Assembly (NCBI RefSeq): GCF_900156105.1
Contig: NZ_FTMS01000003.1
Coordinates: 62,001-126,000, forward strand
Reading direction: 5' to 3'
DNA length: 64,000 nt
Origin: Alkalispirochaeta americana
GTDB lineage: Bacteria; Spirochaetota; Spirochaetia; DSM-27196; Alkalispirochaetaceae
Below are positions 16,152 through 44,924 of this stretch, piece after piece (position 1 is the stretch's first letter; each line of letters starts with the position of its first letter). A program made the translations under genes and the position numbers. The notes under the pieces are model-generated. The model was not told where the DNA came from and searched no databases. It worked only from the letters and a program-made list of their open reading frames with translations.

Positions 16152-18761
16152 TTAGTCGCTGATCCACCAAGTATCAACAAAGTCACTGGTGTTGAGGATG
16201 AGGGGGGCTCCCTCGGAGAGCATGAAGGGGTCTGAAAGGGCGGCATCACCGTAACTCGTTGTCTCCTCCCGCTCGCTCCAGCTGGTCAGAAGTATTCGCC
16301 ATTCCTTGCCGGGAGCAAGGCCCGTCAGGGCTCCAGGCTCAAACTGGGGGCGATCTCCTTCTTTGGCTTGCAGGGTTTCGCCGTCTTTCTGGAGGAGCTG
16401 GACGTTCCCATCTCCGTACCAGCCATCGAAATCCTCGGATGTTTGTCCTGAGCCCCACCCAGACCCCTGATGCGCATAGCCATCGGCATCAATGAGATCG
16501 TAGTAAACGATGGTGCCTGTGCCGAAGATTGTATCCAGGGTCTCGGAGGATATCACCAGATTGGCGACCCACTGGCCCTGCAGGAAGACATCCCTGCCGG
16601 GCATGGTGAAGGTCGGGGGATCACCCTCGCCATCCCATTCAATGAGGGCCATGGGGCTGTCTGTTCCGACTTCCTGCCACCCCAGAAAGGAGCTTGAGTC
16701 CGGTAGCGGCACCACGTGAGGAATGGTCACGGGTTCTCCCTGGCTGTGGAACCGGGGAGGATGGTTTGTGCTCGTGTAGAGAGACATTCCCCAGTTCTCA
16801 TCGGCAAGCCCGGGGTCGTAGAAGACGATATAGGTCTCTTCGGGCCCGGCAAAGCCCCGGATCACTCGGGAGGGAAGGAGATCAGTCAGGGGAGGATCTG
16901 TTATGAAGCCCGATCCAGTATAAAAATAACGTGCTGCGGCACCATCATGTCTAAGATTTGAGTGCCAAAACCAGCTGCTGTCCTGAATTCCCGCACGGTT
17001 GCGGAGATCCTCATTCTGAAAGATCTTTGCATCAAGAATAGCCAGCTCTTCTTCCGAAGGAAGGAACCAGTCGGAGAAACCTCCCCCCGCGTAGTTCCGG
17101 GCTTCCAGGGCCGCGTAATCTCCTGTACCTCCCTGGGCTGCGATGACCGCAGTGGTATTGTGCCGTCCCAGTCCCGATGCTTGTCCTATCTCTTCCATAT
17201 ACTCGAGGTTTTCGAGGTCTCCTGTCTCGATGCCACTCCTCAGCCAGGGAAGCGGGGCAATCTGCTCCAGAGAGATTTCCAGATAGCGCCATCCCACCAG
17301 GTTGCTGGTGCGGTTGGATTCGTGCATGGGGTCGCTATCATCATCGGTGTCAAAAAACACGAGTCCCCCGGCGGGGCCTATCTTCCCGATTACCTCGTTA
17401 TCGTTGGTCCATTGGGCGGTGAGGGTGATATCGCCAGTAATCGTCAGGGAATCCCCGGGTTGGTACTCATCATCGCCCTCAAGCCAGCCCAGGAAACGCT
17501 GGGTGATTCCCGAACCCTCGTGGCCTGTCAGGCCGGGGCCGCGCAGGGCCTGGGGTTGCAGTATCTCGTGAGGGTCGGCGTCGGCCATCAGATAAACCGG
17601 GCCCGGGGGCGCCCCGCTGGAGCCATCGCCCCCCAGATAGGTCACGGTGAAGACCCCGCCAGCCTCGAAGGGCTCCGGGGTCTCTGCTCCCTGGGACTCG
17701 CCGTAGGTGTTATAGGCAACCACGCGATAGTGCCAGGATGAGTCGGGAGGGACCCGGTCGGTATAGAGGGAACTGTTGGAGGGTAATGAGCCAGCTCCGG
17801 GAAGGGCCGTGGCGAACTCGTCCGCACCGGCCTCCTTGCGGTAGATTCGGTACCCCAGGGCGGTGTTGGCCGTTCTGGTCCAGGAAAGATGAACGGCCCA
17901 GCCTTCGTCGGGGTCAAAAGCTCCTTGAGTTGCCTGAAGATCCTCCGGTGCCGAGGGGGGGAGCCCGATGCGCCCGGTGATATCCAGAGTCTTCTCCGAG
18001 CGTCGGCCGTCGTAGATGTGGATGATATCGCGGTAGGTCGCCACGGGGATGCCGTTTCTCTGCAGGGGGATCACGATGCGGTAGAAGCCGCTCTCCAGGA
18101 GGCTGTCGGGGCCGGTCTGGTGGTAGCGCAGGGTTCCTGCCCCGGAGTCAAAATCAATGTTTGCTGTGGGAATATGGATCGGTTCGTCAGGGGTCTGGCC
18201 CGGTCTGAGCCGCTGTAGAGAAGGCGTGGGGACTCCTGCATCGTTGTGGTATCCGGTGATCAGCCCGGGAGGGTCCCAGGAGAGTTCTATCTCCACGGAG
18301 CCTTCTCCGTCTTCGGTCCTGGCAGCCTGGAGATCGGCGGTCCAGGTGACGATCTGGCCTGCAATGATATTGACCTCCCCGGAGGCCCCAAAGGTTTCCA
18401 CCTCGGTGTCATCGGGAAAATAGCCCCGGAGCGAGATGTTCCAGGTTCCTGGGGGGATGCCCGGCAGGGAGATCTCCGAGACAGAGAGATCTAGCGCTTC
18501 AAGCTCTTCCTGATCCGGGTCATCTGGGGTAAGGGTAAGATCAAAGCGCAGGTCTTCAGGAGATGCCTCCGGGGGAAGCACCGTGGCAGCGCCCACGGGA
18601 AAGGTGATGATCAGGGTGCCTGTGGCACCGGTCCCGCCCCGCAGTGCCGGTGAGCGATCGTTGTCTGACTTTTCAAAAGGTGAGAGTACGGCGCTACAGG
18701 CAGCTACACAGACCAGGGAACACAGGACATATACTTTAACGTTTTTGTACCAAGAGACCAT
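16152..18761 (-). CDS. mosaic lipoprotein 1: shared N-module, Fn3, InlB-like and DUF1566-like domains
   Basis: 869-residue predicted surface or periplasmic lipoprotein; lipobox VAAC gives Cys22. Layout: shared family module (about 22-270, containing SPFEKSDND, a duplicated beta-rich core and HIYDGRRSEK), fibronectin type III-like domain (about 280-375), InlB B-repeat-like segment (VTYLGGDGS... TLTAQW), DUF1566/Lcl-like domain (about 440-610: GGLVFFD, WRYLEIS, GFSDWFLPSEEEL), a further InlB-like piece (IVFYDPGL), then a C-terminal module of about 115 residues (LVISSETLDTIFGTG to the end) shared with paralogues 2 and 3. AGGAGG precedes the ATG by 6 bases. Function unknown; adhesion is only a guess from the module types. 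Confidence 0.88.
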   Translation of the reverse strand: MVSWYKNVKVYVLCSLVCVAACSAVLSPFEKSDNDRSPALRGGTGATGTLIITFPVGAATVLPPEASPEDLRFDLTLTPDDPDQEELEALDLSVSEISLPGIPPGTWNISLRGYFPDDTEVETFGASGEVNIIAGQIVTWTADLQAARTEDGEGSVEIELSWDPPGLITGYHNDAGVPTPSLQRLRPGQTPDEPIHIPTANIDFDSGAGTLRYHQTGPDSLLESGFYRIVIPLQRNGIPVATYRDIIHIYDGRRSEKTLDITGRIGLPPSAPEDLQATQGAFDPDEGWAVHLSWTRTANTALGYRIYRKEAGADEFATALPGAGSLPSNSSLYTDRVPPDSSWHYRVVAYNTYGESQGAETPEPFEAGGVFTVTYLGGDGSSGAPPGPVYLMADADPHEILQPQALRGPGLTGHEGSGITQRFLGWLEGDDEYQPGDSLTITGDITLTAQWTNDNEVIGKIGPAGGLVFFDTDDDSDPMHESNRTSNLVGWRYLEISLEQIAPLPWLRSGIETGDLENLEYMEEIGQASGLGRHNTTAVIAAQGGTGDYAALEARNYAGGGFSDWFLPSEEELAILDAKIFQNEDLRNRAGIQDSSWFWHSNLRHDGAAARYFYTGSGFITDPPLTDLLPSRVIRGFAGPEETYIVFYDPGLADENWGMSLYTSTNHPPRFHSQGEPVTIPHVVPLPDSSSFLGWQEVGTDSPMALIEWDGEGDPPTFTMPGRDVFLQGQWVANLVISSETLDTIFGTGTIVYYDLIDADGYAHQGSGWGSGQTSEDFDGWYGDGNVQLLQKDGETLQAKEGDRPQFEPGALTGLAPGKEWRILLTSWSEREETTSYGDAALSDPFMLSEGAPLILNTSDFVDTWWISD

Positions 18762-18809
18762 AAGGTTCCTCCTGGGCCTCGATATACTTTTTAAAAGGCC
18801 TTACTCGAT

Positions 18810-18854
18810 AGTATAGCGCATGAGGGGAGAATATACTGTATTTTTGTATTCATA
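18810..18854 (-). promoter_or_regulatory. family promoter and operator-like palindrome of mosaic lipoprotein 1
   Basis: A minus-strand TATACT (18815-18810) lies 48 bases upstream of the ATG. It is preceded by an AT-rich, partly palindromic site (18829-18854) homologous to the perfect one before paralogue 2. Immediately upstream, 18855-18900 still encodes in the minus frame a remnant of the C-terminal tail of a kamA copy (TKPEISAITK followed by a stop), matching TKTEISAKTK in the remnant at 22.7 kb. Confidence 0.5.
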
Positions 18855-19001
18855 ATTTGGTTATGGCAGAGATTTCCGGCTTGGTGCCGGCCTCGGGGTC
18901 GTCCCCGAAGGGAAAAAAAGCGGGAGGGTGCTCGAACACAAAAGGCAGGGGTTTTGAGCTACCCTCCCCGGGGCAGGCCGGGGGCCCGCCCTGACCCGGT
19001 G

Positions 19002-22000
19002 TTAGCTGTCCCAGTCCCAGGCCACAAAGTCATTGTCATCAAGAGTGATGGTGCCTCCCTCGGAGAGCGTGAAGGGCTGCGAGAGGTTTGCTCTTCTGAA
19101 TGCTGATGCAGGGCCTCTGTCGGGCCAGTTGGTCAGAAGTATGCGCCATTCCTTGCCGGGAGCAAGGCCCGTCAGGGCTTCCGGCTCAAACTGGGGTCGG
19201 GTACCCGTCGTCTTCACCACGTTCGTCACACCGTCTTTCTCGAGGAGCTGGACGTTTTCATCTTCGTACCAGGTATCGAAATTCCAGGGTGATGTTCCTG
19301 AGCCCCACCCAGACCCCTCATGGTCATAGGATTCGGCATCAATGAGATCGTAGTAAAAGGTGGTGCCTGTAGGAAATATTGTATCAAGCGTCCCGGAGGA
19401 TATCACCAGTTCCGTGGTTTTTTCTTCGATGATGTCAGAATACTGGTTCCACCCGTCGGCTTCCTTGTAGGCGGTCTCGGAACCTGCGGGCACCAGGATG
19501 CTCCCGGTTCCGCCTGCGATGGGGGAACCCTGGAACAGGTCAACCCCAGCGGTGGTTATCCCGTCGGGAGCCTCCCAGCGGTTTACTATGACGGTTTCGA
19601 GGTTGGCCATGAGGGTGAAAGCCTCTGCTCCGACAGACTCAACACTGGCGGGTATAAGGAGTTCCGTGTTCTCGAAGGTGTTTTCTGCAAAGGCACCGAC
19701 CCCGATAGTTGTAACCGACTCGGGAATTGTGAGCTGACCCGAGAAGCCGCTACCACTTGGGCTAAAGGCAGTACTGCCAATTGTTACAAGATTTTCTCCC
19801 AGGGTAAGAGTTCCGTCAAAAGCTCCCCTCAGGGCCTGATTGCCCACAGAGATAACCGAATCTGGTACGACCAGATCGCCTGTGAATCCGGTTCCAACAA
19901 AGGCGAATGCTCCAATTGACTGAATTCCTTCATTCAGGGTGAGGGCCCCGGTGAATCCGGCGTTCGAAAAAGCGCTGATCGCTACAGAGGTTAAGGTGCC
20001 GGGAATCTCCAGATTTCCTGTGAAGTTGTTAGTCCTGAAAGCACCATTGGCAAGTCCGGTGAGCCCCGAAGGTAGCGTGAGAGTACCGTCGAATTTGGAA
20101 TCTTCGAAGGCAGAGATCCCAATGGTTGTAACCGAAATGGGGATCTCCAGGCTTCCCGTGAATCCGGTGGCCTGGAAGGCATTGTCCGGGATCGATGTGA
20201 GCACGAGGCTTTCCAGATTGAGAGTGCCGGTGAATCCGGAGCTCTGAAAGGCTCTGGGACCCATGGAGGCAATCGAACCGGGGATCGTCAGCCCTCCTGT
20301 GAACTGGTTTCCCCTAAAGGAGTCGGATCCAATGGTTTCGAGGTTTTCTCCCAGGGTCAGGGTTCCATCAAATCCAGCGGTCCGGAAGGCGGCATTTCCA
20401 ACGGTTGTAACTGCATCGGGAATCACCAGGTTGCCCGTGAAGTTGGTGTTCATGAAGGCTTGCCCTCCAATGGTCTGAACCGACTCGGGAATTACCAGAG
20501 TGCCCGTGAGTCCGGTATCGGCGAAGGTGGTTATTTCGATCGACGTGAGCGAGAGGTTTTCCAGATTGAGGGGGCCGGTAAATCCGGCGGTACGAAAGGC
20601 ACTCGCACCAATAAAGGCAACCGAACCGGGGATCGTCAGCCCTCCTGTGAACTGGTTGTTCCTGAAGGCCTCAGGTCCAATGGTTTCGAGGTTTTCCCCC
20701 AGGGTCAGGGACCCATCGAACCCGGCGTTCTGGAACGCGGCGTTTCCAACGGTTGTGACCGAATCGGAGATTACCAGGCTACCCGTGAAATTGGCGTTCT
20801 GGAAGGCTTGCACACCAATGGTCTGAACCGACTCGGGAATTACCAGAGTTCCTGTGAACCCGGTATCGGTGAAGGTGTTCGCCTCGATCGACGTGAGCGA
20901 GAGGTTTTCCAGATTGAGGGGGCCGGTGAATCCGGCCTCCTGAAAAACTCTCGTGCCCATGGAGGTAATCGAACCGGGGATCGTCAGCCCTCCTGTGAAC
21001 TGGTTGTCCCTGAAGGCTCCCACCTCAATGGTTTCGAGGTTTTCTCCCAGGGTAAGGGAACCACCGAATCCAGCGTTCCGGAAGGCGTTATCCTTGATGG
21101 TTGTAACCGAGTCGGGGATCACCAGGTTTCCCGTGAAGTTATTGGTGTTGAACGCAAGACGGCCGATCTCTGTGACCGAATCGGCGATAGTAAGGGTGCC
21201 AGTGATCTGTTTGCCTTCAAAGGCCGAAGCAGCAATCGTCCTGACCGTTCTCGTAACCCCACCCACCTCTGCAGCGGGGGGTATAATCACGTCATCCTCA
21301 GCTGCACCGGTGTAGCCCGTCAGGATCAGGTAGTCCGAGTGAACAGTAAAAAGGAAATCACCCTCATTTCCTTCGGGATTTGCCGAAAGAACAGGGGATG
21401 CCAGTGGAGAAGAGGTTCCGTAGCTGTTTGCAGCGATCACTCGGTATTGATAGGTGTCGTCCAGATCAGCGGGTTCGAAGGTGTCGCTGAAGAAGGATGT
21501 ATCTCGCGGAAGGTCGGTGGCCCCGTCAAGAACTTCGAAGGCCCCATCGTTTACCCGGCGGTAGATTCGGTAGCTCAGGGCAGTGTTGGCTGTTCTGGTC
21601 CAGGAGAGCCCCACCGTCCATTCTTCTTCGGTCTCGTCAAAACTCACCGGTGAGAGTTGAAGATTCTCCGGGGCCGAGGGCGGGGTCCCGATCAGCGGAG
21701 TGATCTCCAGATCCTTTTCCGAGCGTCGTCCGTCGTAGATATGGATCACGTCGCGATAGGTTCCCACGGCATAGGTCTGGCCGGTCTCGCTGTCGTGCCG
21801 TTCCAGGGGAATCGCGATGCGGTAGAAGCCGCTTGGCAGGTTATCCTGTTCGTAGGTAAGGGTGCCCTGGTCTGCGTCGAAGGTGATGGTGATCCCTTCA
21901 TCGGCGGGATCGATATAAAAGGGGGGCTCCCGGTCTTCCGGGGCTTGCCCTGGCACGAGCAACTGCAGCGAGGGTGTCAGTGCGTCTGCGTCGTCTTCGT

Positions 22001-22565
22001 AGTTCGTAACGCGTGAAGTCCCGGGATTTCCGGGAAATAACTCCGGGTTCCAGGAGAGTTCGATCCTCACCGAACCCTCTCCTTCATCGGACTGGATGGC
22101 CAGCAGCTGGGCCACCCACGTGGTGGGGAGACCTGCGGTGATTTCGATCGGGTCCTGGGAGGACGCGCCGAAAGCGTAGACATTAGGGATGACCCCCTCC
22201 AGGGGTGTTCCCTCGGGGAAGTAGCCCCGAAGCGAAATATTCCAGGTCCCCTCGGGGATGCCCGGCAACGAGAGTTCTCCGGCGGGCAGCTCCTGTACCT
22301 CGATAGGTTCCTGAGCGGGGTCAGCGGGGGTGAGGGTGAGATTGAACTCCAGGTCATCCGGGGCTACCTCGGGGGGAAGGACCGTGGAAATTCCGGTCTG
22401 ATTAAAGATGATCTCCAGGGTGCCTGTTCTGTCTGCTCCCGGGCGAGATGGCATGGCGCTGTCTTGTTCAGATTTCTCGAAAGGGGACAGAATCGCGCTG
22501 CAGGCAGCGATACAGACAAGGGAAAAGAGCGAATAGACTCTCGGATTCTTGTGCCAGGTGGTCAT
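19002..22565 (-). CDS. mosaic lipoprotein 2: shared N-module, Fn3 and about 24 BspA-type LRRs
   Basis: 1187 residues; lipobox IAAC gives Cys19-22. The shared N-terminal module and Fn3-like domain occupy about 22-405. LRR_5/BspA-type repeats of about 23 residues follow (about 430-1030, consensus LTIPxSVTTIGxxAFxxxxFTG); I count about 24. They show a higher-order period of five LRRs (116 residues). The C-terminal module of about 115 residues is the one in paralogues 1 and 3. Such LRRs occur in surface proteins of oral and free-living spirochaetes and Bacteroidetes (BspA, LrrA), where some bind host or bacterial surfaces; here the role is unknown. Start ATG has GGGAGGA 6 bases upstream. Confidence 0.9.
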   Translation of the reverse strand: MTTWHKNPRVYSLFSLVCIAACSAILSPFEKSEQDSAMPSRPGADRTGTLEIIFNQTGISTVLPPEVAPDDLEFNLTLTPADPAQEPIEVQELPAGELSLPGIPEGTWNISLRGYFPEGTPLEGVIPNVYAFGASSQDPIEITAGLPTTWVAQLLAIQSDEGEGSVRIELSWNPELFPGNPGTSRVTNYEDDADALTPSLQLLVPGQAPEDREPPFYIDPADEGITITFDADQGTLTYEQDNLPSGFYRIAIPLERHDSETGQTYAVGTYRDVIHIYDGRRSEKDLEITPLIGTPPSAPENLQLSPVSFDETEEEWTVGLSWTRTANTALSYRIYRRVNDGAFEVLDGATDLPRDTSFFSDTFEPADLDDTYQYRVIAANSYGTSSPLASPVLSANPEGNEGDFLFTVHSDYLILTGYTGAAEDDVIIPPAAEVGGVTRTVRTIAASAFEGKQITGTLTIADSVTEIGRLAFNTNNFTGNLVIPDSVTTIKDNAFRNAGFGGSLTLGENLETIEVGAFRDNQFTGGLTIPGSITSMGTRVFQEAGFTGPLNLENLSLTSIEANTFTDTGFTGTLVIPESVQTIGVQAFQNANFTGSLVISDSVTTVGNAAFQNAGFDGSLTLGENLETIGPEAFRNNQFTGGLTIPGSVAFIGASAFRTAGFTGPLNLENLSLTSIEITTFADTGLTGTLVIPESVQTIGGQAFMNTNFTGNLVIPDAVTTVGNAAFRTAGFDGTLTLGENLETIGSDSFRGNQFTGGLTIPGSIASMGPRAFQSSGFTGTLNLESLVLTSIPDNAFQATGFTGSLEIPISVTTIGISAFEDSKFDGTLTLPSGLTGLANGAFRTNNFTGNLEIPGTLTSVAISAFSNAGFTGALTLNEGIQSIGAFAFVGTGFTGDLVVPDSVISVGNQALRGAFDGTLTLGENLVTIGSTAFSPSGSGFSGQLTIPESVTTIGVGAFAENTFENTELLIPASVESVGAEAFTLMANLETVIVNRWEAPDGITTAGVDLFQGSPIAGGTGSILVPAGSETAYKEADGWNQYSDIIEEKTTELVISSGTLDTIFPTGTTFYYDLIDAESYDHEGSGWGSGTSPWNFDTWYEDENVQLLEKDGVTNVVKTTGTRPQFEPEALTGLAPGKEWRILLTNWPDRGPASAFRRANLSQPFTLSEGGTITLDDNDFVAWDWDS
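20110..21150 (-). repeat. 348-bp super-repeat inside mosaic lipoprotein 2
   Basis: About three copies of a 348-bp unit encoding five LRRs recur at about 20340, 20689 and 21037 (seen in the repeated sequence GAGGTTTTCTCCCAGGGT and the surrounding repeat order). It indicates growth by multi-LRR duplication, not by single LRRs. Confidence 0.8.
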
Positions 22566-22613
22566 GAGATTCCTCCCGGGCCTTGGTGTGCTTTTTTACA
22601 GGCCTCACCTGAA

Positions 22614-22658
22614 AGTATAGCCCGAAGAGAGAATATATACTGTATTTTGGTATATATT
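22614..22658 (-). promoter_or_regulatory. promoter of mosaic lipoprotein 2 with a perfect 9-bp palindrome
   Basis: Minus-strand TATACT at 22619-22614, 48 bases upstream of the ATG, as in paralogues 1 and 3. At 22632-22658 a perfect inverted repeat AATATATAC-9 bases-GTATATATT overlaps the expected -35 region. Since no good -35 hexamer is visible, the palindrome could bind an activator or repressor. Confidence 0.55.
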
Positions 22659-22689
22659 ATTTGGTTTTGGCAGAGATTTCCGTCTTGGT

Positions 22690-22978
22690 GTTGGCCCCGG
22701 AATCGATCTTCCCGGTGATGGGCTTGTCGGGGTAGCGGAACCACCTGCCGTCCAGGCTCTGTAGATGGTGCCAGCCGGGTTCTTTTTTGCTCAGGCTTTC
22801 GGGGTAGAGGGGGGATCTTTTCACCGCCCCGGGCAAATCCACGGCAAAGGCGGGCCGGCCGATCCCCGAGAGACGCCGCCGCAGGAGCCGTGAAGTATCG
22901 CCGAAAGCAATGAGGGCAGTGCATCGCGCAGGTATCGGTGATAAGGAAGAGGGCCCGGTCGCGGTATCGGGGCTTCCC
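22690..22978 (-). pseudogene. internally deleted, frameshifted remnant of a kamA copy
   Basis: On the minus strand, 22978-22880 encodes YRDRALFLITDTCAM followed by HCPHCFRR, matching the radical-SAM Cys cluster of the intact kamA at 26281-27405. After a gap of about 180 codons and a frame change, 22874-22690 encodes the C-terminus (VDLPG, PLYPESLSKKEPGWHHL, SLDGRWFRYPD) plus a tail absent from the intact gene (ITGKIDSGANTKTEISAKTK then a stop). Nucleotide similarity to the intact gene is high across both parts. The deletion and frame change make an active enzyme impossible. It abuts the epimerase remnant. Confidence 0.85.
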
Positions 22979-23053
22979 GGCTTCTCAACACCTGCGGCCG
23001 AGAGTGGTTCCCAACGATGGCCGGGTTGCTTCGTCCTGTATCATGCAGGCTCG
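22978..23053 (+). pseudogene. 76-bp remnant of the nucleotide-sugar epimerase gene
   Basis: The plus strand matches the intact epimerase gene at about 15675-15748 nearly throughout: LLNTCG for IFNTYG in one frame and, after a one-base deletion, NDGRVASSCIMQA for DDGRVISSFIVQA in another. It sits 22 bases before the stop of mosaic lipoprotein 3, the same relative place and orientation as the intact gene next to mosaic lipoprotein 1. So the lipoprotein was duplicated together with its convergent neighbour. Confidence 0.75.
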
Positions 23054-23074
23054 AAGCCCTCCCGGCCGTGGTGG

Positions 23075-24604: not shown

Positions 24605-24652
24605 AAGGTTCCTCCCGCGCCTTGCTATACTTTTTAGAAGGCCTTAACCGAC

Positions 24653-24690
24653 AGTATAGCGTAGGGGAGGCGAAAATACCGTATTCTGCT
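24653..24690 (-). promoter_or_regulatory. family promoter of mosaic lipoprotein 3
   Basis: Minus-strand TATACT (24658-24653), again 48 bases from the ATG. The upstream AT-rich site is recognisable (AAATACCGTATTCTGCTATAA) but its two arms no longer match, so any operator present in paralogue 2 has decayed here. Confidence 0.45.
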
Positions 24691-24780
24691 ATAAAGAATC
24701 CCAAATATTCTGCGTGGCCGTTGATTTTGCACCGGCGAGGCAGGATTGGTTATACTGAATAATCTGATCATGGAGGGCTC

Positions 24781-26199
24781 ATGGTTTCCTTTGTTATTCC
24801 CACGCGTAATCGTCCTGCGACGCTTGCCGGAAGCACCGCAAGCCTCCTGTCGTGGCTTGCCACATGCCCTGATGAGCCTCTCCCCCTGCTCATCCTGGAC
24901 GACAGTGATCAGGCCCGGAGCCTGGAAGAGAACCGGGCCCTGGCACAGACTCTGGCCGACTCGTCTCCGTCGGGGCAGGGGGTGTTCTATCTCGGCCCAA
25001 AGGAACGCCGTCGCCTGGTCTCGGCACTGGCTCAGGGCGACCCGGAGCGGGAAGCGCTTCTCGGCTTTGCCTGCCTCAGGAGGGACGGAGAACTCGCCAT
25101 CTCGAGCCCCGGCCGAAACCGCAACTGTGCCGTGCTGGCTTGGGCGGGCAGAAAGATCCTCTCTTTGGATGATGACGCACGGTTCTGCTTCTCCCGCCTG
25201 TCGGTGAGAGACCTTGAGTCTCCTGCCGAGTATAGCGCCTGTGTAGTACCTGCCATGGATGATCTGGCGGGGTATCTGGAACCCTTTCCCGGAGATCCCC
25301 TGAGGGAAATGGTGGAATCGCTCCAGGGCAGACAGGTTCCTCTGGTGATGACCGGTATGGCGGGGAACCGCTGGTTCAGCAGGCCTCAGCATTTTCTGAC
25401 CCTCCACGAACCCCTGCGGGACCGGGTATACCTGCCAAAAAAGAGTTACACCCGTTCGCGGCCCGCTCCCTTCGCATTCTTCCAGTATCCCCGGGGAAAA
25501 GCCAGCGAGAATTCTTTTCTGGTAACCTGTTGCCACGGGGCGGACGCCGGGATTCTGCTCCCTCCCTTTCCCCCTCAGGGGCACGCCGATGACTCGGTCT
25601 TTGGTGTGCTGGTGCGGTTTTGTTATCCCGGGAGTGTTACCCGGCACATGCCCTTCTGCGTGCACCACGATCTTGGCGATCCTCAGCCCTTCGCTGACCG
25701 GGCCTGGTACGAGACGGGCCTGACAACAGCGCTTCTCACTCGCCTGGTTTTGCAGTACCTGATAAAACGTGTCCCACCAGATCTGATCGGGGCTCCACAG
25801 CGGATTGTCTGGTTGGGGGAGCTGATGTGTGCGCTGGCAGAGATGCCGCTTGAGGATTGGCAGGACCTGGTGCACGAACTCTTTCTGCTTTTTGCAATGG
25901 CAGAGCGGGAAAAATTTGGCGAACTTCTTGATCGGTACCGGGGAGAACCCTCGTGGTGGGCCCGGGATGTGGAGGACTACACGGAGCGGTTGATCCAGCA
26001 GGGGGCTGCTCCCGAAGGCGCCTTGCCCCGGGAGTATCGCGATGCCGGGCTATCTCTGGGGCAGGGTCTGGAGCAGTACCGGGCCTTTTGTCGCTCCTAC
26101 GGGCAGCTTATGATGATTTGGCCCCGGGTTTGGGAGGATGCCTGCTCCAGGGTGGCAGAGCCCGGGCTTGAGCTTCCGGGGGCCTCCGGGGCGAGGTAA
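24781..26199 (+). CDS. GT2-like glycosyltransferase, large unusual form
   Basis: 472 residues. The N-terminus MVSFVIPTRNRPATL is that of family 2 (GT-A) glycosyltransferases, and the metal/nucleotide-binding acidic motif appears as SLDDDARF at about residue 130. The C-terminal half (about 240-470) contains CHGADAGILLPPF, HADDSVFG and FCVHHDLGDP, the last two reminiscent of the acceptor/catalytic-base region, then a helical tail. No membrane segment. GGAGGG precedes the ATG by 4-9 bases. The only plus-strand gene inside the lipoprotein cluster; it might glycosylate a cell-surface product, possibly a cluster member, but this is inference. Confidence 0.7.
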   Translation: MVSFVIPTRNRPATLAGSTASLLSWLATCPDEPLPLLILDDSDQARSLEENRALAQTLADSSPSGQGVFYLGPKERRRLVSALAQGDPEREALLGFACLRRDGELAISSPGRNRNCAVLAWAGRKILSLDDDARFCFSRLSVRDLESPAEYSACVVPAMDDLAGYLEPFPGDPLREMVESLQGRQVPLVMTGMAGNRWFSRPQHFLTLHEPLRDRVYLPKKSYTRSRPAPFAFFQYPRGKASENSFLVTCCHGADAGILLPPFPPQGHADDSVFGVLVRFCYPGSVTRHMPFCVHHDLGDPQPFADRAWYETGLTTALLTRLVLQYLIKRVPPDLIGAPQRIVWLGELMCALAEMPLEDWQDLVHELFLLFAMAEREKFGELLDRYRGEPSWWARDVEDYTERLIQQGAAPEGALPREYRDAGLSLGQGLEQYRAFCRSYGQLMMIWPRVWEDACSRVAEPGLELPGASGAR

Positions 26200-26280
26200 G
26201 CCCCCGGGGAAGGCTCCGCACTCCTGGTCTCCCGCAGGAGGCGGGTACTGGTTCCGAATTTGCAGGGGATGAACTAAACC

Positions 26281-27405
26281 TCAGGAAGGAGCCTCATCGG
26301 GGTAGCGAAACCATCTGCCGTCCAGACTTTGCAGGTGATACCAGCCGGGTTCTTTCCTGCTCAGGCTTTCGGGGTAGAGGGGGATTTTCCCTCCCCCCTG
26401 GGGCAGATCCACGGCGAAAACGGGGAGGGCGATCCCCGAGAGGCGCATGCGCAGGCACCGGAAGATCTCCATGGCTTCTCCCAGGGGAACCCGGAAGTGA
26501 GCCGTTCCCGGGGCCAGATCTCCCTGAAAGAGATAGTAGGGGGTAACCCGTCGTGCCACCAGCCCCTGGAAGAGCTCTTCCAGGGTGTCAGGGTGATCGT
26601 TCACCCCCCGGAGAAGCACCGTCTGGTTAAAGAGGGGGATTCCCGAATCAACCAGAGATTCCACAGCCTGTGTGCTCTGGGGTGTTATTTCCCGGGGGTG
26701 GTTGAACTGGGTAACCACCACCAGTGGTGCCCACCGCCGCAGGAGCCGCGAAAGTTCCGGTGTGATTCTCCCGGGAAGCACCACGGGAACGCGCGAGGCA
26801 ACCCGGAAGACCAGATCGGGCCGGGCTTCACGGAACGTCGAGAGAAGTGTCTCCAGGTCTTCGTTGTGCAGGGTCAGGGGATCTCCGCCCGAGAGGATTA
26901 TTTCCCGTAGTGAGGGGGTCGCTCCTGCGTAGGCGGCGGCCAGGATGATCTCTTCCCTGGTGGCACCACCCTGACGTTTTCCTGTGAAATGCCGGCGGAA
27001 GCAGTGTCGGCAGTACATGGCGCAGGTATCGGTGGCAAGAAAGAGAGCCCGATCGCGGTAGCGGTGAATCAGGCGGGGCCGGGGGGTGTGGCTTTCCTCG
27101 TGAAGGGGATCGTCCTGTTCCCAGGGGCGCTGCTCGAACTCTTGTCGTCGGGGAACGCACTGCCTGCGGAGGGGGTCATCGGGGCTGTCCGTGCAGAGAT
27201 TCAGGTAATACGAGGGGATGCGCAGGGAGAGGCCGGCGCCGTCTGCATCGGGTTCAGGAGAGGATGCGAAGTAGCCTTCCTCTTCCCCGGTGAGGGAAAA
27301 GAACCGACGGAGTTCCCCGGGCGATGTGAGCGCCCGGGCAAGGTCTTGAATCCAGGGGGGGGAGGACATGGTCTTTGTGTACCATGTCCCGCAGGAGGCG
27401 GGCAA
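26281..27405 (-). CDS. KamA-family radical SAM lysine 2,3-aminomutase
   Basis: Radical SAM, PLP-dependent aminomutase (lysine 2,3-aminomutase or the EpmB type that makes beta-lysine for EF-P). The cluster-binding motif CAMYCRHC (C-x3-C-x2-C) lies at residues 128-135, preceded by YRDRALFLATDT. The conserved GGDPL, FNHPREITP and C-terminal PLYPESLSRKEPGWYHL are present. The start is probably TTG at 27405 because AGGAGGT lies 9 bases upstream; the alternative ATG at 27369 lacks a site. The gene follows mosaic lipoprotein 4 by 38 bases and is likely cotranscribed. No efp gene is in the window, so lysine metabolism and EF-P modification are both open. Confidence 0.88.
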   Translation of the reverse strand: MPASCGTWYTKTMSSPPWIQDLARALTSPGELRRFFSLTGEEEGYFASSPEPDADGAGLSLRIPSYYLNLCTDSPDDPLRRQCVPRRQEFEQRPWEQDDPLHEESHTPRPRLIHRYRDRALFLATDTCAMYCRHCFRRHFTGKRQGGATREEIILAAAYAGATPSLREIILSGGDPLTLHNEDLETLLSTFREARPDLVFRVASRVPVVLPGRITPELSRLLRRWAPLVVVTQFNHPREITPQSTQAVESLVDSGIPLFNQTVLLRGVNDHPDTLEELFQGLVARRVTPYYLFQGDLAPGTAHFRVPLGEAMEIFRCLRMRLSGIALPVFAVDLPQGGGKIPLYPESLSRKEPGWYHLQSLDGRWFRYPDEAPS

Positions 27406-27443
27406 CCGTGGTGCACCTCCTGCGGTTTTTTCCGTGAAGAACG

Positions 27444-30400
27444 TTACTCCTGTTCCTCTATAGTGTATTCATTCCACCCGTCGGCATCGGTATAGTCCGG
27501 CCCCCTTCCCTCAGGAACCTTGATGGTTCCGGAACCAAGATCAAGCAGGCTGCCCATGAAGAAATCATACTTTCCTTCAACGGGGGTTCCCGTAGCCTCC
27601 GGAGGCGCTGGTGCGTTCACCGTGACGGATCCGAGGTCTTCCATGCCGGCAAAGGCTCTTAAGCCAATAGAGATAACCGTTTCAGGGATGGTCAGATTGC
27701 CTGTGAAACTGTTGTTCTTGAATGCCCAACTCGCGATGGTTGCCAGGTTGCTTTCGGTGGTTTCCAGGGTAAGGTTTCCATCAAAGCCGACGTCCTGGAA
27801 GGCGCGAATTCCTATCGTCGTAACCGAATCGGGGATGGTTAGATCGCCCCTGAAGTTGGTGGATCTGAAGGCACTTGATCCAATAGTCTCGAGGCTGTCG
27901 TGCAGGGTGAGCGTGCCTTCGTTGAAATTGTTGCTCCCGGAGTTAGACTCGAACATGTTGTCGGGGATCGCTGTGATGTTCCCGGGAATCGTTAGATCAC
28001 CTGTGAAGCCTGTCGCCCAAGAAAAGATGCTTGTCTCGATGGTGACAAGGCCTGTTCCCAGTTCGAGGGGTCCGTCGAAGGTGGCATATCTGAAGGCACT
28101 GTTACCGATGTGTGTGACCGAGTTGGGGATCGTGAGGCCATTTGTAAAGCGGGAACTCTCGAAGGCGGAGCTTTGTATCGTGAGAAGGCCTTCATTCAGG
28201 GTAAGGTCTCCTTCGAATTCGATACCCAGGAAGGCGCTACCCCCGATAGCTGTAACCGAAGCCGGGATGGTCAGATCGCCTGTGAAGTTGTTGCTCTCGA
28301 ATGCCCAACTCGCGATGGTCGCCAGGTTGCTTTCGGTGGTTTCCAGGGTAAGGTTTCCATCAAAGCCGACGCCCTGGAAGGCGCCAATTCCTATCTCCGT
28401 AACCGAATCGGGGATGGTTAGATTGCCCCTGAAGTTGGTGTATCTGAAGGCCCTTAATCCAATAGTCTCGAGGTTGTCGTGCAGGGTGAGCGTGCCTTCG
28501 TTGAAATTGTTGCTCCCGGATTTAGACTCGAACATGCTGTTGGGGATCGCTGTGATGTTCCCGGGAATCGTTAGATCACCTGTGAAGCCTGTAGCGTGAT
28601 AAAAGATGCTTGCCTCGATGGTGACAAGGCCTGTTCCCAGTTCGAGGGGTCCGGCGAAGGTGGCCTCTTTGAAGGCATTGCTACCGATGTGTGTGACCGA
28701 GTTGGGGATCGTGAGGCCATTTGTAAAGCTGGAACTCTCGAAGGCGGAGCTTTGTATCGTGAGAAGGCCTTCATTCAGGGTAAGGTCTCCTTCGAAATTG
28801 ATACCCAAGAAGGCGCTAACCCCGATATCTGTAACCGAAGTCGGGATTGTAAGGTCGCCTGTGAAGCCCGTGCCCTGGAAGGCCCTTAATCCAATAGTTT
28901 CGAGGTTGCTTTCGGTGGATCCCAGGATGAGTGTGCCCCCAAATCCGGCGTCTGTGAAGGCCCTGCTTCCAATGGTCACCACCGAGTCGGGGATTGTCAG
29001 GTCGCCTGTGAACGCGTTCACTTCGAATGCCCAAGATCCGATGGTTTCGAGGTTGCTGTCTACCGTCCCCAGGGTGAGGGTGCCGCCGTTAAAACCTGCA
29101 GACCCGAAGGCTAGGTTGCCGATGGAGGTGACCGAATCGGGGATTATCAGGTTGCCCGCGAAGGCGTTGTTACTGAATGCCGAAGATCCGATGGTTTCGA
29201 GGTTGCTTTTGGTGGTTTCCAGGGTGAGGGTGCCGTCAAAACCTGCAGACCCGAAGGCTAGGTTGCCGATGGAGGTGACCGAATCGGGGATTGTCAGGTT
29301 GCCCGCGAAGGCGTTGTTACTGAATGCCGAAGATCCGATGGTTTCGAGGTTGCTTTCGGTGGTTCCCAGGATGAGGTAGCTCCCGTCAAATCCTGCGTTT
29401 TTGAAGGCGTTGTCTCCAATGGTCACCACTGAGTCGGGGATTTCCAAGTCGCCTGTGAAGGTGTTATTCTCGAATGCCTCGGCTCCAATCTCCGTGATCG
29501 AATCGGGGATCGTGAGCCTTTCCGTGATTTCCTTGTTCTTAAACGCACCGGGACCAATCTTTGTGACCGGTCTGTTCTCACCGTTCACCTCCAGTGCGCC
29601 GGGTATCACAACATCAACCGAGGGGGCGCCGGTGTAGGCCAGGAGGACCAGGCGGTCCGGGTAGACCAGGAAGGTAAAATCTCCGTCTGTTGCCTGCAAG
29701 TCACCCGGCACGGCTGGTGAGTCCAGAGGTTGGGCGTTGCCGTAGGTATTCCGGGCGACCAGCCGGTACTGATAGGAATTGATACTCGTGCTTTGGGTGG
29801 TATTGAAGGAGCTGGTGGTCCGCGGGAGCTCTTCTGCGCCGGCCAGGAGCTCAAAATCACCCTCGTTTTCGCTCCGGTATACCCGGTAGCCTTCGGCGGT
29901 GACGGATCTGGCCCAGGAGAGCCCCACCGTCCATTCTCCTTCGGTCTCGTTAAAACTCACCGGCGAGACCTGAAGGTCCTCCGGTTTTGAGGGCGGGGTT
30001 CCGATCCGGTCGGTGATATCCAGGTCCTTCTTCTCCGAGCGCAGGCTGTCGTAGATGTGGATCACGTCGCGGTAGGTTCCCACGGAGAAGGTCTCATTGG
30101 TGTCGGCATCGTGCCGTTCCAGGGTGATCACGATGCGGTAGAAGCCGCTCTGGAGGTCTTCCTGGTGATAGGTGAGGGTTCCGTTTTCCGCATGAAAGGC
30201 GATATCGATATTCGCATCGGCATCGTCGATGTACACTGGGTCCTCAGGGGTCCCGCCCGGTATGAGCCTCTGCAACGAGGGTGAGGGATTGCTGTCGTCG
30301 TCCAGGTAGTTTGTGACACGCAGGACCTCGGGAAATAATTCAGGGTTCCAGGTGAGTTTGATCAGCACGGAGCCCGTTGCCTCCTGGAGTGCCCGGAGCT

Positions 30401-30863
30401 GGGCCTGCCAGTAGGTTGGTTCGCCTGCATAGATAGCCACAGGATCCGCAGAAGATGCACCGAAGGCGTAGACCTGGGGGGTGACCCCCTCCAGGGGAGT
30501 GTCCTCAGGGAAGTAGCCCCGGAGCGAGATGTTCCAGGTCCCCTCGGGGATGCCCGGCAGGGAGATCCCCGAGGCGGAGAAGCCCACTCCCTCAATAGAT
30601 TCCTGAGCGGGGTCATCTGTCTCAACAGGGGTAAGGGTAAGATTAAAGAGCAGATCTTCTGGAGATACGCCCGGGGGAAGCACCGTGGCAGCGCCCACGG
30701 GGAAGGTGATAATCAGGGTGCCTGTGGCACCGGTTCCGCCTCGCGTTGCCGGAGGGCGATCACCTTCAGATTTCTCGAAGGGTGAGAGAAGGGCGCTACA
30801 GGCAGCAAGGCATATCAGGGACGCCACCAGACAGCCTTTCAGGCATCTTATCAGGGTCAGCAT
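27444..30863 (-). CDS. mosaic lipoprotein 4: shared N-module, Fn3 and BspA-type LRRs
   Basis: About 1139 residues; lipobox LAAC with Cys22 from the chosen start. The shared module (SPFEKSEGDRPP, beta-rich core, HIYDSLRSEK) and Fn3-like domain span about 22-400. A long run of BspA/LRR_5 repeats follows to near the C-terminus, with a short ending (VPEGRGPDYTDADGW) instead of the C-module of paralogues 1-3. I chose the ATG at 30863 because AAGGAGT lies 7 bases upstream; a further upstream ATG at 30896 lies within a hairpin. It contains a 579-bp tandem duplication. Followed at 38 bases by kamA. Function unknown. Confidence 0.88.
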   Translation of the reverse strand: MLTLIRCLKGCLVASLICLAACSALLSPFEKSEGDRPPATRGGTGATGTLIITFPVGAATVLPPGVSPEDLLFNLTLTPVETDDPAQESIEGVGFSASGISLPGIPEGTWNISLRGYFPEDTPLEGVTPQVYAFGASSADPVAIYAGEPTYWQAQLRALQEATGSVLIKLTWNPELFPEVLRVTNYLDDDSNPSPSLQRLIPGGTPEDPVYIDDADANIDIAFHAENGTLTYHQEDLQSGFYRIVITLERHDADTNETFSVGTYRDVIHIYDSLRSEKKDLDITDRIGTPPSKPEDLQVSPVSFNETEGEWTVGLSWARSVTAEGYRVYRSENEGDFELLAGAEELPRTTSSFNTTQSTSINSYQYRLVARNTYGNAQPLDSPAVPGDLQATDGDFTFLVYPDRLVLLAYTGAPSVDVVIPGALEVNGENRPVTKIGPGAFKNKEITERLTIPDSITEIGAEAFENNTFTGDLEIPDSVVTIGDNAFKNAGFDGSYLILGTTESNLETIGSSAFSNNAFAGNLTIPDSVTSIGNLAFGSAGFDGTLTLETTKSNLETIGSSAFSNNAFAGNLIIPDSVTSIGNLAFGSAGFNGGTLTLGTVDSNLETIGSWAFEVNAFTGDLTIPDSVVTIGSRAFTDAGFGGTLILGSTESNLETIGLRAFQGTGFTGDLTIPTSVTDIGVSAFLGINFEGDLTLNEGLLTIQSSAFESSSFTNGLTIPNSVTHIGSNAFKEATFAGPLELGTGLVTIEASIFYHATGFTGDLTIPGNITAIPNSMFESKSGSNNFNEGTLTLHDNLETIGLRAFRYTNFRGNLTIPDSVTEIGIGAFQGVGFDGNLTLETTESNLATIASWAFESNNFTGDLTIPASVTAIGGSAFLGIEFEGDLTLNEGLLTIQSSAFESSRFTNGLTIPNSVTHIGNSAFRYATFDGPLELGTGLVTIETSIFSWATGFTGDLTIPGNITAIPDNMFESNSGSNNFNEGTLTLHDSLETIGSSAFRSTNFRGDLTIPDSVTTIGIRAFQDVGFDGNLTLETTESNLATIASWAFKNNSFTGNLTIPETVISIGLRAFAGMEDLGSVTVNAPAPPEATGTPVEGKYDFFMGSLLDLGSGTIKVPEGRGPDYTDADGWNEYTIEEQE
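27690..28847 (-). repeat. two tandem 579-bp copies within mosaic lipoprotein 4
   Basis: Segments about 27690-28268 and 28269-28847 are near-identical at an offset of exactly 579 bases (193 codons, about eight LRRs); for example GTTGAAATTG at 27921 recurs at 28500 with its surroundings. Exact offset and high identity suggest a recent duplication. A separate two-LRR (147-bp) pair lies at about 29041-29334. Confidence 0.85.
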
Positions 30864-30880
30864 GAGATAACTCCTTTGGA

Positions 30881-30908
30881 CCCCGGCGAAGGTCATGCTT
30901 CGCCGGGG
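30881..30908 (-). terminator. perfect 11-bp hairpin between mosaic lipoproteins 5 and 4
   Basis: CCCCGGCGAAG and CTTCGCCGGGG are separated by 6 bases, between the stop of paralogue 5 (30947) and the start of paralogue 4 (30863). There is no T-tract on the minus strand. It could attenuate transcription into paralogue 4 or protect the upstream message; both are guesses. Confidence 0.45.
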
Positions 30909-30946
30909 AGGGGCAACCCTGTAGCCGGGGGGCTGCGGGGTGCGGA

Positions 30947-33900
30947 TTATTGCGACTCTATTCTAGCTGCATATTCAGCCCACCCGTCGGCAGTTTGGTA
31001 GGTCGCTACCGAAGCCTCCGGAACAAAAATGTTACTGCTTTCTGTATCCGCAATTGGAGTTTCCGCAAAAATACCGGTTCCGGCGTCTGGCGGATCTTCC
31101 CGCATCACCGTGACAGTTGCGAGCGCCGACCAGCTCCGGAACGTGCTACCTCCGATGTTGGTAACCCGCGCAGGGATGGTTATCTCAGTGATCTGGGTGC
31201 TGGCGTTCTGGAAGGCTCTCACGTTAATCTCCAGATCAGAACCGCCTTCAAATGTCAGACTTTGGAACCCTGGGCTTACGATATCTCGGAAAGCGTCGCT
31301 CCAGATACGAGTAACCGAACCGGGGATCGTCACGCTTGTGAAACCGGTGCCTCGGAAAGCGCTGGTAGAAATATCCGTAAGGTTTCCCAGAGTGAGCGTT
31401 CCGTCGAAGCCGGACTCTTGAAAGGCGGCGATTCCAATTGTCACCGGATCGGGGGTCGTTACGGGGATCGTCAGGTCGCCGGTGAAGCTGTTGTTCCCGA
31501 AGGCTTGTTGTCCGATGGAGGTGACCGAATCGGGGATCGTCAGGCCGCCTGTGAAGTTGTTACCCTGGAAGGCACCGTTTCCAACCGTTTCAAGGCTCGT
31601 TCCCAGGGTCAGGGTTGCTCCATCGAAGGATCCGTTGAAGGCGTTCTCTCCGATGATCTTGACCGAGTTGGGGATCGTCAGCTCGCCGGTGAAGTTGCTG
31701 ACCCGGAAGGCCTCGCTTCCAATCGTTTCCAGTTTGCTGTTTTCAGTACCCAGGGTGAGGATCGCTTCGCTGGGGCCAAATTGCGGGGTGTTAAAAAAGG
31801 CCCTGTCTCCGATTGTTGTAACCGAATCGGGGATCGTCAAATTGCCTCTCAACCTGGTTGACTCGAAGGCGCTGGCTCCAATCGTTTGAAGGCTCGTGCC
31901 CAGGGTGAGATTGCCATGCATAAAGGCCATGTCGTTAACATTATCTGGTTGAAAGGCTCCCTCCCCGATAGTGATAACCGAGTCGGGGATCACCAGGTTG
32001 CCGTAGAATCTGTTGTCCCGGAAGGCGCTGGCCCCGATCGTTTCCAGTTTGCTGTGTTCAGTACCCAGGGTGAGGGTGTGCCTAAAATCCGGATCATCAT
32101 TTCTGAAGCTGTTGTCACGGAAGGCTTCTGCCCCGATCGTGATAACCGAATCGGGGATCACCAGATCGCCCGAGATGCCGAGCTCAAAGAAAGCCTTCTC
32201 TCCGATGGAGGTGACTGTACCGGGGATTTCCAGAGGGCCCCGCAAGTTGGTGCCCTCGAAAGCCCTGTTCCCGATGGTTTCGAGGGCGCTTTCGGTGGTT
32301 CCCAGAGAGATGTACCGGTGGGAGTGTCCTGTGAACTCTCTATTCAGGAAGGCGCTGTCCCCGATCGTGATAACCGAATCGGGGATTGTCAGATTGCCTG
32401 CGAAGGGTCTGGTTGCGTTATCTAAGAAGGCGCTGTTCCCGATGGTTTTCAGCCCTGTTCCCAGAGAGAGACTTCCCCCTGTGAAAGTCGCCCACCGGAA
32501 TGCCTCTTGTTCGATAGTAATAACCGAATCGGGGATTGTCAGATCGCCCGTGAAGATGACGAACTGGAAGGATCTTGTTCCAATTGTTTCCATCCCTGTG
32601 CCCAGGGTGAGATTTCCTCCGAATTCAATACTCCGGAAGGCATCGTGCCCGATCGTGGTAACCGAATCGGGGATTGTCAGATTGCCCGTGAACCCGGTGC
32701 CCTGGAATGCCGTAGCCCCGATGGTTCCGAGGTTGCTTCCGGTGGTTCCCAGGGTGAGGGTTCCATCAAAACCAGCAGAACGGAAGGCATCTAGCCCGAT
32801 CGTGGTAACCGAATCGGGGATGGTCAGGTTGCCTGTGAAGTTGCTGTCCCTGAATGCCGAAGCCCCGATGGTGTCGAGGTTGCTTTCGGTGGTTTCCAGG
32901 GTGAGGGGGCCATCAAAACCTGCAGAACTGAAAGCGCTGCCGCCGATGGAGGTGACCGAGTCAGGGATTATCAGGCCGCCCGCGAAGTTGTTTTCTATGA
33001 ATGCCCCAGCTCCGATGGTTCCGAGGTTGCTTCCGGTGGTTCCCAGGGTGAGGTTGCCTTCATCAAAACCTGCAGAACGGAAGGCGTTGATGCCGATGGA
33101 GGTGACCGAATCGGGGATTATCAGGTCGCCTGTGAAGTTGTTGTCACGGAAAGCTGCCGCACCGATCTCCGTGATCGAATCGGGGATTGTGAGGGTTCCC
33201 CCGATCTCCTTATTCAAAAATGCCTGGGCAGCTATTTTTTTGACTGTCCTTTCTACTCCTCCTATCGTTGCAGTCGCGGGAATCTCCACGTCCGCTTCGG
33301 GGTCGCTGCCTATGTATTCCGACAGGATCAGGTAGTCCGAATGAATGTGAAAGGTAAAATCCCCTTCTATTGCCTGCAAGTCACCCGGTACGGTTGGTGA
33401 GTCCAGAGGTTGGGCGTTGCCGTAGGTATTCCGGGCGACCAGCCGGTACTGATAGGAGTCGATACTCGTGCTTTGGGTGGTTTCGAAGGAGCTGGTGGTC
33501 CGCGGGAGGTTGTCTGCCAGGAGCTCAAAAGCACCCCCGTCTTCGCTCCGGTATATCCGGTAGCTTTCGGCGGTGACGGATCTGGTCCAGGAGAGCCCCA
33601 CCGTCCATTCTTCTTCGGTCTCGTCAAAACTCACCGGCGAGACCTGAAGGTTCTCCGGGGCCGAGGGCGGGATCCCGATCAGCGGGGTGATATCCAGGGT
33701 CTTCTCCGAGCGCAGACTGTCGTAGATGTGGATCACGTCGCGGTAGGTTCCCACGGAGAAGGTCTCATTGGTGTCGGCATCGTGCCGTTCCAGGGTGATC
33801 ACGATGCGGTGGAAGCCGCTTTCCAGGCCACTCTCCTCATAGATGAGGGTTCCTGCGTCCCCGTTGAAGGTGATGGTTTGGGGATCAATATGAACTGGTT

Positions 33901-34504
33901 CCTGGTGGGTCCCGCCTGGTATGAGTCGCTGTAGCGAGGGCGAGGGCTCGGCAGAGTCATCCATCCACTCTGTGACGAGTTCGGAATCGTTCCAGAAGAG
34001 CTCGATTTTTACCGATCCCTCACCCTCGTCTGTCTGGAGAGCCAGAAGTTGGGCTGACCACTGGGTGGGAACGCCCTGGAGGATTGTCACATCCTCGGTG
34101 GCGCTGAAGGCGTGGACCTCGGGGGTAACTCCTTCCGGGGGTGTTCCCTCGGGAAAATAGCCCCGAAGCGATACGCTCCAGGTTCCGGGGAAGATCCCCG
34201 GTACAAAGAGTTCCGACTCGGAGAGTCCCTCCAGGTCGATTTCCTCCTGACCAGGAATATCTATGGGGTTCAGGGTAAGGTCGAATTTAAGATCCGCCGG
34301 GAACACCTCGGGGGGGAGGACCGTGGAAATTCCGGTCTGATTAAAGATGATCTCCAGGGTGCCCGTGTGGTCGGCACCGGGGTGGGACGCCGTGGCGCGG
34401 TCCTGGTCTGATTTCTCGAAGGGTGAGAGAAGGGCGCTGCAGGCCGCGAGGCATATCAGGGGAACGATCAGGCCGAGGCTGGCTCTTTTTAAACGGTTCG
34501 CCAT
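30947..34504 (-). CDS. mosaic lipoprotein 5: shared N-module, Fn3 and about 25-30 BspA-type LRRs
   Basis: 1185 residues; lipobox LAAC gives a lipidated Cys near residue 22. Layout as paralogue 4: shared module (SPFEKSDQDR, HIYDSLRSEK), Fn3-like domain to about 395, then LRR_5 repeats (LTIPDSVTTIG type) to about 1140, ending VPEASVATYQTADGW. N-terminal sequence and lipobox flanks vary more than in 1-3 (MANRLKRAS), and the upstream sequence lacks the family promoter, so it may depend on the gene before it, 84 bases away. AAAAGGAGT precedes the ATG by 7 bases. Confidence 0.88.
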   Translation of the reverse strand: MANRLKRASLGLIVPLICLAACSALLSPFEKSDQDRATASHPGADHTGTLEIIFNQTGISTVLPPEVFPADLKFDLTLNPIDIPGQEEIDLEGLSESELFVPGIFPGTWSVSLRGYFPEGTPPEGVTPEVHAFSATEDVTILQGVPTQWSAQLLALQTDEGEGSVKIELFWNDSELVTEWMDDSAEPSPSLQRLIPGGTHQEPVHIDPQTITFNGDAGTLIYEESGLESGFHRIVITLERHDADTNETFSVGTYRDVIHIYDSLRSEKTLDITPLIGIPPSAPENLQVSPVSFDETEEEWTVGLSWTRSVTAESYRIYRSEDGGAFELLADNLPRTTSSFETTQSTSIDSYQYRLVARNTYGNAQPLDSPTVPGDLQAIEGDFTFHIHSDYLILSEYIGSDPEADVEIPATATIGGVERTVKKIAAQAFLNKEIGGTLTIPDSITEIGAAAFRDNNFTGDLIIPDSVTSIGINAFRSAGFDEGNLTLGTTGSNLGTIGAGAFIENNFAGGLIIPDSVTSIGGSAFSSAGFDGPLTLETTESNLDTIGASAFRDSNFTGNLTIPDSVTTIGLDAFRSAGFDGTLTLGTTGSNLGTIGATAFQGTGFTGNLTIPDSVTTIGHDAFRSIEFGGNLTLGTGMETIGTRSFQFVIFTGDLTIPDSVITIEQEAFRWATFTGGSLSLGTGLKTIGNSAFLDNATRPFAGNLTIPDSVITIGDSAFLNREFTGHSHRYISLGTTESALETIGNRAFEGTNLRGPLEIPGTVTSIGEKAFFELGISGDLVIPDSVITIGAEAFRDNSFRNDDPDFRHTLTLGTEHSKLETIGASAFRDNRFYGNLVIPDSVITIGEGAFQPDNVNDMAFMHGNLTLGTSLQTIGASAFESTRLRGNLTIPDSVTTIGDRAFFNTPQFGPSEAILTLGTENSKLETIGSEAFRVSNFTGELTIPNSVKIIGENAFNGSFDGATLTLGTSLETVGNGAFQGNNFTGGLTIPDSVTSIGQQAFGNNSFTGDLTIPVTTPDPVTIGIAAFQESGFDGTLTLGNLTDISTSAFRGTGFTSVTIPGSVTRIWSDAFRDIVSPGFQSLTFEGGSDLEINVRAFQNASTQITEITIPARVTNIGGSTFRSWSALATVTVMREDPPDAGTGIFAETPIADTESSNIFVPEASVATYQTADGWAEYAARIESQ

Positions 34505-36175: not shown

Positions 36176-36327
36176 AAATATAATCATACCCCCCCGAGGC
36201 CAGTATATCCAGCGTGGCGGCATTTTTGTCAAAGTTTCTTTTCGTTTTCTGTTAGTTTCCCCTGCTCGGATTCCCCTGCTCGGAGCGGGTGAGGGCGTCA
36301 GGACGATGATCCGGGCTATCAGGCGCG

Positions 36328-43574: not shown

Positions 43575-43591
43575 TATCCTTCTAATATAGG

Positions 43592-43634
43592 GCCTGATCG
43601 GCACAGAAGAAAGGGATATTATGCCGAATCAGGC
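43592..43634. promoter_or_regulatory. inverted repeat upstream of glgX
   Basis: GCCTGATCGGCA (43592-43603) and TGCCGAATCAGGC (43622-43634) form an imperfect 12-13 base dyad with an 18-base spacer in the 71-base gap between the WYL-regulator stop and the glgX start. It may be the regulator's operator or a terminator for the regulator message. Confidence 0.4.
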
Positions 43635-44644: not shown

Positions 44645-44924
44645 GGTCGTAGTATCCACGGAAATGTCTTTTTATTCAAATTTATCGGGTGTTGGTTGCT
44701 TCCCGAGAGGGTCTGCAATTGAGGCAGCCCGGAAAAGGGTCTGCCCTTGCCACTATGGCAGAGCGGAAGTCCTGCGCCAGGATGACCGGAAGATGACCGG
44801 AAACAGGTGAGCTTTCTACAGGGTTCTTTGTGTGAAGTGCGTGAGAAAGATATGCGCCAAATGCCTGGCTGCTTTCATGATGAAACGGTGAAGATCCGAA
44901 GAAATGGCTGGAAAACGTAATGGT

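Follow-up and report, generated by a model that had tools for sequence, protein, structure and literature searches.

How do neighbouring lipoprotein genes come to share one front part and yet end in different ways? The question is raised by a cluster in Alkalispirochaeta americana, an alkaline-lake spirochaete, which we analysed in a window of 64,000 nucleotides (contig NZ_FTMS01000003.1, positions 62,001 to 126,000) from a genome of 3.3 Mb in 65 contigs. Five ORFs with stop-free translations lie here, all on the minus strand, and we resolved their composition from translations, alignments and profile matches. P1 (16152..18761, 869 aa) combines an N-module with an InlB-like, a DUF1566-like and a further InlB-like block and ends in a C-module. 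In P2 (19002..22565, 1187 aa) the N-module is followed by an LRR_5 array and a C-module, and in P3 (23075..24604, 509 aa) a comparison of the junctions shows the N-module joined straight to the C-module. P4 (27444..30896, with the start probably at the ATG at 30863) and P5 (30947..34504, 1185 aa) carry an N-module and an LRR_5 array without the C-module. This is the scheme of endings that the original prediction had described. We consider it likely that the cluster is a locally amplified group of recombining envelope lipoproteins, each built of a lipid anchor, a stalk and an exchangeable head, that diversified by duplication, deletion and gene conversion.

The arrangement of the locus carries traces of how it grew. 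An epimerase and a diguanylate cyclase gene flank the cluster on one side; on the other stands a CYWTP lipoprotein gene (34589..36232, minus strand), whose sequence holds three PKD-like repeats of ~95 residues, followed by three amylase/isoamylase-like genes of the alpha-amylase family (36776-43604). Alignment reveals two leaders, one common to P1-P3 and another to P4-P5. The leader of P1 (18762..18842, minus strand) contains TATACT and GGAGGAA motifs and recurs before P3 and, in weaker form, before P2; the block of 89% identity between P1 and P3 begins 81 nt upstream of the start codon in both. Directly after P4 lies an intact radical-SAM/lysine-2,3-aminomutase-like gene (26281..27405, minus strand; Radical_SAM and LAM_C over cut-off), and between P3 and P2 a scar of the same gene (22723..22969, minus strand; 81% nucleotide identity) consists of two joined pieces, codons ~115-142 and ~313-371. 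Since the remnant between P3 and P2 matches the gene after P4, the duplicated unit was probably a lipoprotein gene together with an aminomutase gene. Two further minus-strand ORFs were rejected as genes: 22562-22924 contains the aminomutase remnant, and 24634-25875 lies opposite a glycosyltransferase-like gene on the plus strand (24781-26199).

The shared front part is an N-module of ~370 residues, made up of a lipobox cysteine, a pair of beta-sandwich domains and a putative Fn3 domain; in P1 it occupies 17658..18761 (minus strand, residues 1-368) and aligns to P3 at 91% nucleotide identity. All five proteins keep the motif AACSAxLSPFEKS behind a signal peptide, in which a hydrophobic stretch runs into AAC-SA, so that the predicted lipobox context and lipoprotein character recur in each of them and acylation of the cysteine is predicted. 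The N-modules align over their full length, with 53-86% amino acid identity to P1 and a mean column identity of 69%, which bears out the common module. Its Fn3-like part was recovered by Pfam only in a homologue (L074), where PF00041 passed the cut-off at 30.0 bits over residues 256-341; other homologues fell just below it and P1-P5 gave no PF00041 match. A structural model of P3 of modest quality (mean pLDDT 65.6) places a signal helix before consecutive stretches rich in beta-strands, and a Foldseek search of this model against PDB returned multi-domain Fn3/Ig proteins. The N-module profile searched against PDB sequences matched an ephrin receptor, other Fn3 proteins and a PEGA-domain protein at E-values of 0.009-0.03, matches so weak even at best (0.009) that we take them as a lead only. 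On these models and profiles, the first two domains are best read as putative PEGA/Ig-like beta-sandwiches. Pfam and NCBIfam placed no model over the first ~250 residues of any scanned protein, apart from one weak local match below cut-off, and the module thus lacks a nameable family, as had been anticipated.

The endings are of several kinds. LRR_5 arrays were found in P2, P4 and P5 with E-values of 3e-73 to 9e-97 (244-320 bits against a cut-off of 27.7), and the profile matched neither P1 nor P3. In P1, one InlB-type repeat passed the NCBIfam cut-off (TIGR02543, 22.2 bits against 20.95) and PF09479 scored below its own. The DUF1566-like block of P1 gave no PF07603 match in the Pfam scan, being too divergent, and homologues with the same N-module and domain order matched Lcl_C/DUF1566 with E-values of 4e-9 and 1e-8; the cut-off of 34.9 bits was passed by L040 with 37.2 bits and by L074 with 35.6.

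The C-module, first put at about 115 residues, measures ~135 by alignment. Among the five proteins it is present in P1 (16152..16559), P2 (19002..19409; 85% nucleotide identity to P3) and P3 (23075..23479) only, on the minus strand in each case and with 69-73% amino acid identity to P3. Structure prediction, which had been proposed for both modules, gave the Fn3/Ig-like matches described above for the P3 model; for the C-module it produced a weak model (mean pLDDT 57.6), and this low-confidence model had no significant match among PDB folds, nor did the C-module profile match any PDB sequence. Two other genomes of the genus (G002 and G006) encode C-module relatives within CYWTP-type lipoproteins, at the place taken by the PKD-like repeats in the CYWTP gene of the window, and the C-module therefore joins two unrelated lipoprotein N-termini.

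Exchange among the five genes is recorded in their sequences at several points. P3 corresponds to P1 with exactly 361 codons missing (16575..17657, minus strand), and a GGC stands at both edges of the segment and matches at the junction. The suggestion that P3 is P1 without its middle is accurate for this deletion and fails in the P3 C-module, whose 3' half is P2-like behind a P1-like 5' half (max-chi2 permutation p 2e-4). The C-module dS is 0.23 for P1/P3 and 0.26 for P2/P3. The N-module dS of P1/P3 is 0.13-0.33, and the flanking orthologues of the window species and A. alkalica have a dS of 0.62-0.80. The P4/P5 pair shows a 15-fold contrast in N-module dS, from 0.96-1.00 in the first two thirds to 0.06 in the last, Fn3-side third. 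The homogenised tract of P4 (approximately 29673..30173, minus strand) spans the end of the second domain and the Fn3 domain and stops at the LRR junction, and nucleotide identity within it is 86-95% against ~55-75% on either side. Because the P1/P3 and P4/P5 tracts fall below the dS of the species split, this pattern looks like gene conversion that postdates the split. Max-chi2 triplet tests on the N-module (500 permutations, with results at the permutation floor, p 0.002) turn P4 towards P5 at alignment column ~780, and one A. alkalica N-module is P2-like to column ~503 and P1-like beyond it. Breakpoints, dS and the deletion junction together provide strong statistical evidence of recombination between paralogues, in agreement with the proposed module shuffling. 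The N-module had been cast as the common anchor; it is indeed common to all five, but it is itself mosaic and hence not inert.

A second cluster allows a comparison between two species, namely that of the window genome and A. alkalica DSM 8900. In A. alkalica the cluster is spread over three unjoined contigs, each ending inside the repeats, and gene order was taken from the flanking genes. A P5-like gene adjoins the CYWTP gene (the best match of P5 is a 1201-aa ORF on contig C21), a P1-type tail lies beside the epimerase, and the P1 middle and C-module have an orthologue on contig C47 (78% nucleotide identity by BLAST). Between the epimerase and the diguanylate cyclase sit two additional members that the window genome lacks at this position; the head of one contains LCCL, CHB_HEX_C_1 and InlB-type repeats, and that of the other a short LRR_5 array. 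Copy number, position and heads therefore differ, so that the variation expected in relatives is present between species. The five proteins did not prove to be one fixed family that lacks variation and a common N-module.

Duplication, in-frame deletion, conversion tracts and head exchange are thus written into the cluster itself, and the mechanism that we propose builds on them. The stalk would be the N-module, that is, the acylated cysteine, the two PEGA/Ig-like beta-sandwich domains and the Fn3 domain, and the heads would be the LRR_5 arrays, the InlB/DUF1566 blocks and the C-module. New combinations would come from tandem duplications, from deletions that keep the frame and from gene conversion between long direct repeats of near-identical sequence, presumably through RecA-type homologous recombination. 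We infer that the proteins are acylated and surface-exposed, that their recombination depends on RecA, and that the stalks present binding or enzymatic heads at the surface; for the heads themselves, binding to polymers, to surfaces or to other cells is the most likely function, and the adhesin or interaction role suggested at first is likewise putative.

Much of the divergence is old, given that dS is near or above 1 across the whole N-module for P2/P5 and P2/P3, and the LRR arrays hold internal tandem duplications. Both would suit a history of old paralogues shaped by point mutation and changes in repeat number, with no exchange between copies and with endings that are old gains and losses. 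Such a history does not account for a 15-fold fall in dS within P4/P5, or for a nearest relative that changes along the N-module and again along the C-module; judged by the dS and breakpoint tests it appears already contradicted unless the assembly is wrong, and we hold it to be very unlikely. Long direct repeats are prone to assembly collapse and chimeras; the window contig runs unbroken here, and the A. alkalica contigs end within the repeats. A different role for the proteins, as periplasmic or inner-membrane structural or sensory lipoproteins or as scaffolds for polymer degradation in which swapping tunes substrate binding, would fit the alpha-amylase family genes next door, and PEGA/Fn3/Ig-type stalks are frequent in polysaccharide-binding proteins. 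A. alkalica, however, keeps its cluster with no amylase gene between the CYWTP and WYL genes, and spirochaete lipoproteins are frequently surface-exposed, as in Borrelia, on which PMC4891356 cites Schulze and Zuckert (2006). We regard this role as unlikely.

Surface lipoproteins with cassette-like parts also bring to mind programmed variation, in which a diversity-generating retroelement (DGR), a site-specific recombinase or silent cassettes of the vls/tprK type would rewrite one expressed copy. The vlsE family of Borrelia and the tprK family of Treponema pallidum recombine by gene conversion among envelope-protein paralogues, and in this the cluster resembles them; it differs in having neither a single expression site nor truncated silent donors, in exchanging whole heads instead of short variable regions, and in belonging to a free-living host. 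P1-P5 are all full-length genes, each with its own start, lipobox and stop, which leaves no silent cassettes, and the breakpoints are scattered instead of falling at one site. The DGR lipoproteins of Treponema denticola (TvpA type) likewise carry a variable or exchangeable head, and their C-type-lectin-fold FGE payloads are DGR targets (PMC4891356); an FGE domain also stands behind the N-module, as in L096 elsewhere in the window genome. A DGR was nonetheless rejected for this cluster, where variation proceeds by homologous exchange: the search of the genome for reverse transcriptases gave one match, on another contig, which reads as a group II intron ORF/maturase, and none near the cluster. 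We hold programmed variation to be highly improbable here.

Among other known systems, BspA-type LRR_5 proteins (PF13306; BspA of Tannerella, LrrA of Treponema denticola) resemble P2, P4 and P5, which carry long LRR_5 arrays on a spirochaete lipoprotein, but BspA is not defined by the N-module found here, and in the cluster the array is one of several heads behind that shared module. The DUF1566-like domain of P1 and several homologues, often placed after InlB-type repeats, recalls Lcl_C/DUF1566 (PF07603) of the Legionella collagen-like adhesin Lcl; the cluster proteins, however, have no collagen repeat, and P1 itself lies below Pfam detection.

The reading of the cluster as recombining anchor-stalk-head lipoproteins describes evolution of a well-supported but ordinary kind, and the more interesting result is how widespread the unnamed N-module is. 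All genome searches with N-module profiles were made within Spirochaetota, and we do not claim that the module is specific to spirochaetes. A contig scan with the first N-module profile found A. alkalica only, owing to narrow peptide patterns, and the wider reach comes from profile searches: the first profile matched in 2 of 8 genomes of the family, an N-module profile in 12 of 46 genomes of the order, and a profile that includes Fn3, some of whose matches are consequently to Fn3 only, in 184 of 395 genomes of the class. A profile restricted to the first two domains matched in 68 of 296 sampled Spirochaetota genomes, 19 of them outside the class. The window genome holds eight copies, five of them in the cluster, and the module starts at a lipobox-like cysteine in all 26 homologous ORFs inspected. 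A literature search found no description of the N-module or of the cluster. By these profile matches, the N-module is best read as an unnamed Spirochaetota-wide lipoprotein N-terminal family and not as a local invention, which makes the window cluster one local expansion of it.

For annotators this would supply a missing family, and for experimenters a portable part, with a lipobox before it and diverse heads after it. The choice of outward-facing lipoproteins and the evolution of surface repertoires in spirochaetes have been largely worked out in Borrelia only, and the cluster adds paralogue recombination, of a kind usually ascribed to host immunity, in a free-living, non-pathogenic genus. 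More tentatively, the first two domains could form a spirochaete surface-display platform, a spacer or sorting unit for many unrelated heads swapped like cartridges; we see this as possible, short of probable. The heads concerned would include LRR, lectin-like, protease, beta-helix and RHS-like types. Across the phylum, the payloads behind the N-module comprise InlB with Lcl_C, beta-helix (for some a label read by eye from repeats; one has a Chlam_PMP match), BNR, M28 peptidase and Big_5, as well as FGE-sulfatase, laminin-G, clostripain, FG-GAP and SpvB/RHS domains.

Beside the cluster of five lipoproteins that share the ~370-residue N-module lies a further lipoprotein gene (34589-36232, minus strand), whose product starts with CYWTP and carries three PKD-like repeats of ~95 residues each, 87-88% identical to one another in DNA. 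In many other spirochaete lipoproteins, PKD-like units resembling these repeats come after the N-module. Between the CYWTP gene and a WYL regulator, the window holds three alpha-amylase/isoamylase-type genes (36776-43604), and comparison with locus L029 of the sister species Alkalispirochaeta alkalica revealed the CYWTP and WYL genes to be nearly adjoining there; the amylase block was therefore either inserted in the window genome or lost from A. alkalica. A tRNA-Val (cac; 44925-44996) falls inside the minus-strand ORF 44875-45855, which makes this ORF doubtful as a real gene.

Elsewhere in the window genome, an additional N-module lipoprotein combines an FGE-sulfatase domain with a DUF1566-like end (L096, contig C17), and two more, of 369 and 485 aa, stand in tandem (L097, contig C12); A. 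alkalica has a counterpart of the former (L098) and a pair matching the latter (L100). In another sampled spirochaete (G471, contig C46), an ORF of 2824 aa (L103) starts with the N-module and continues, by Pfam, into SpvB/RHS/TcdB-middle-type sequence.
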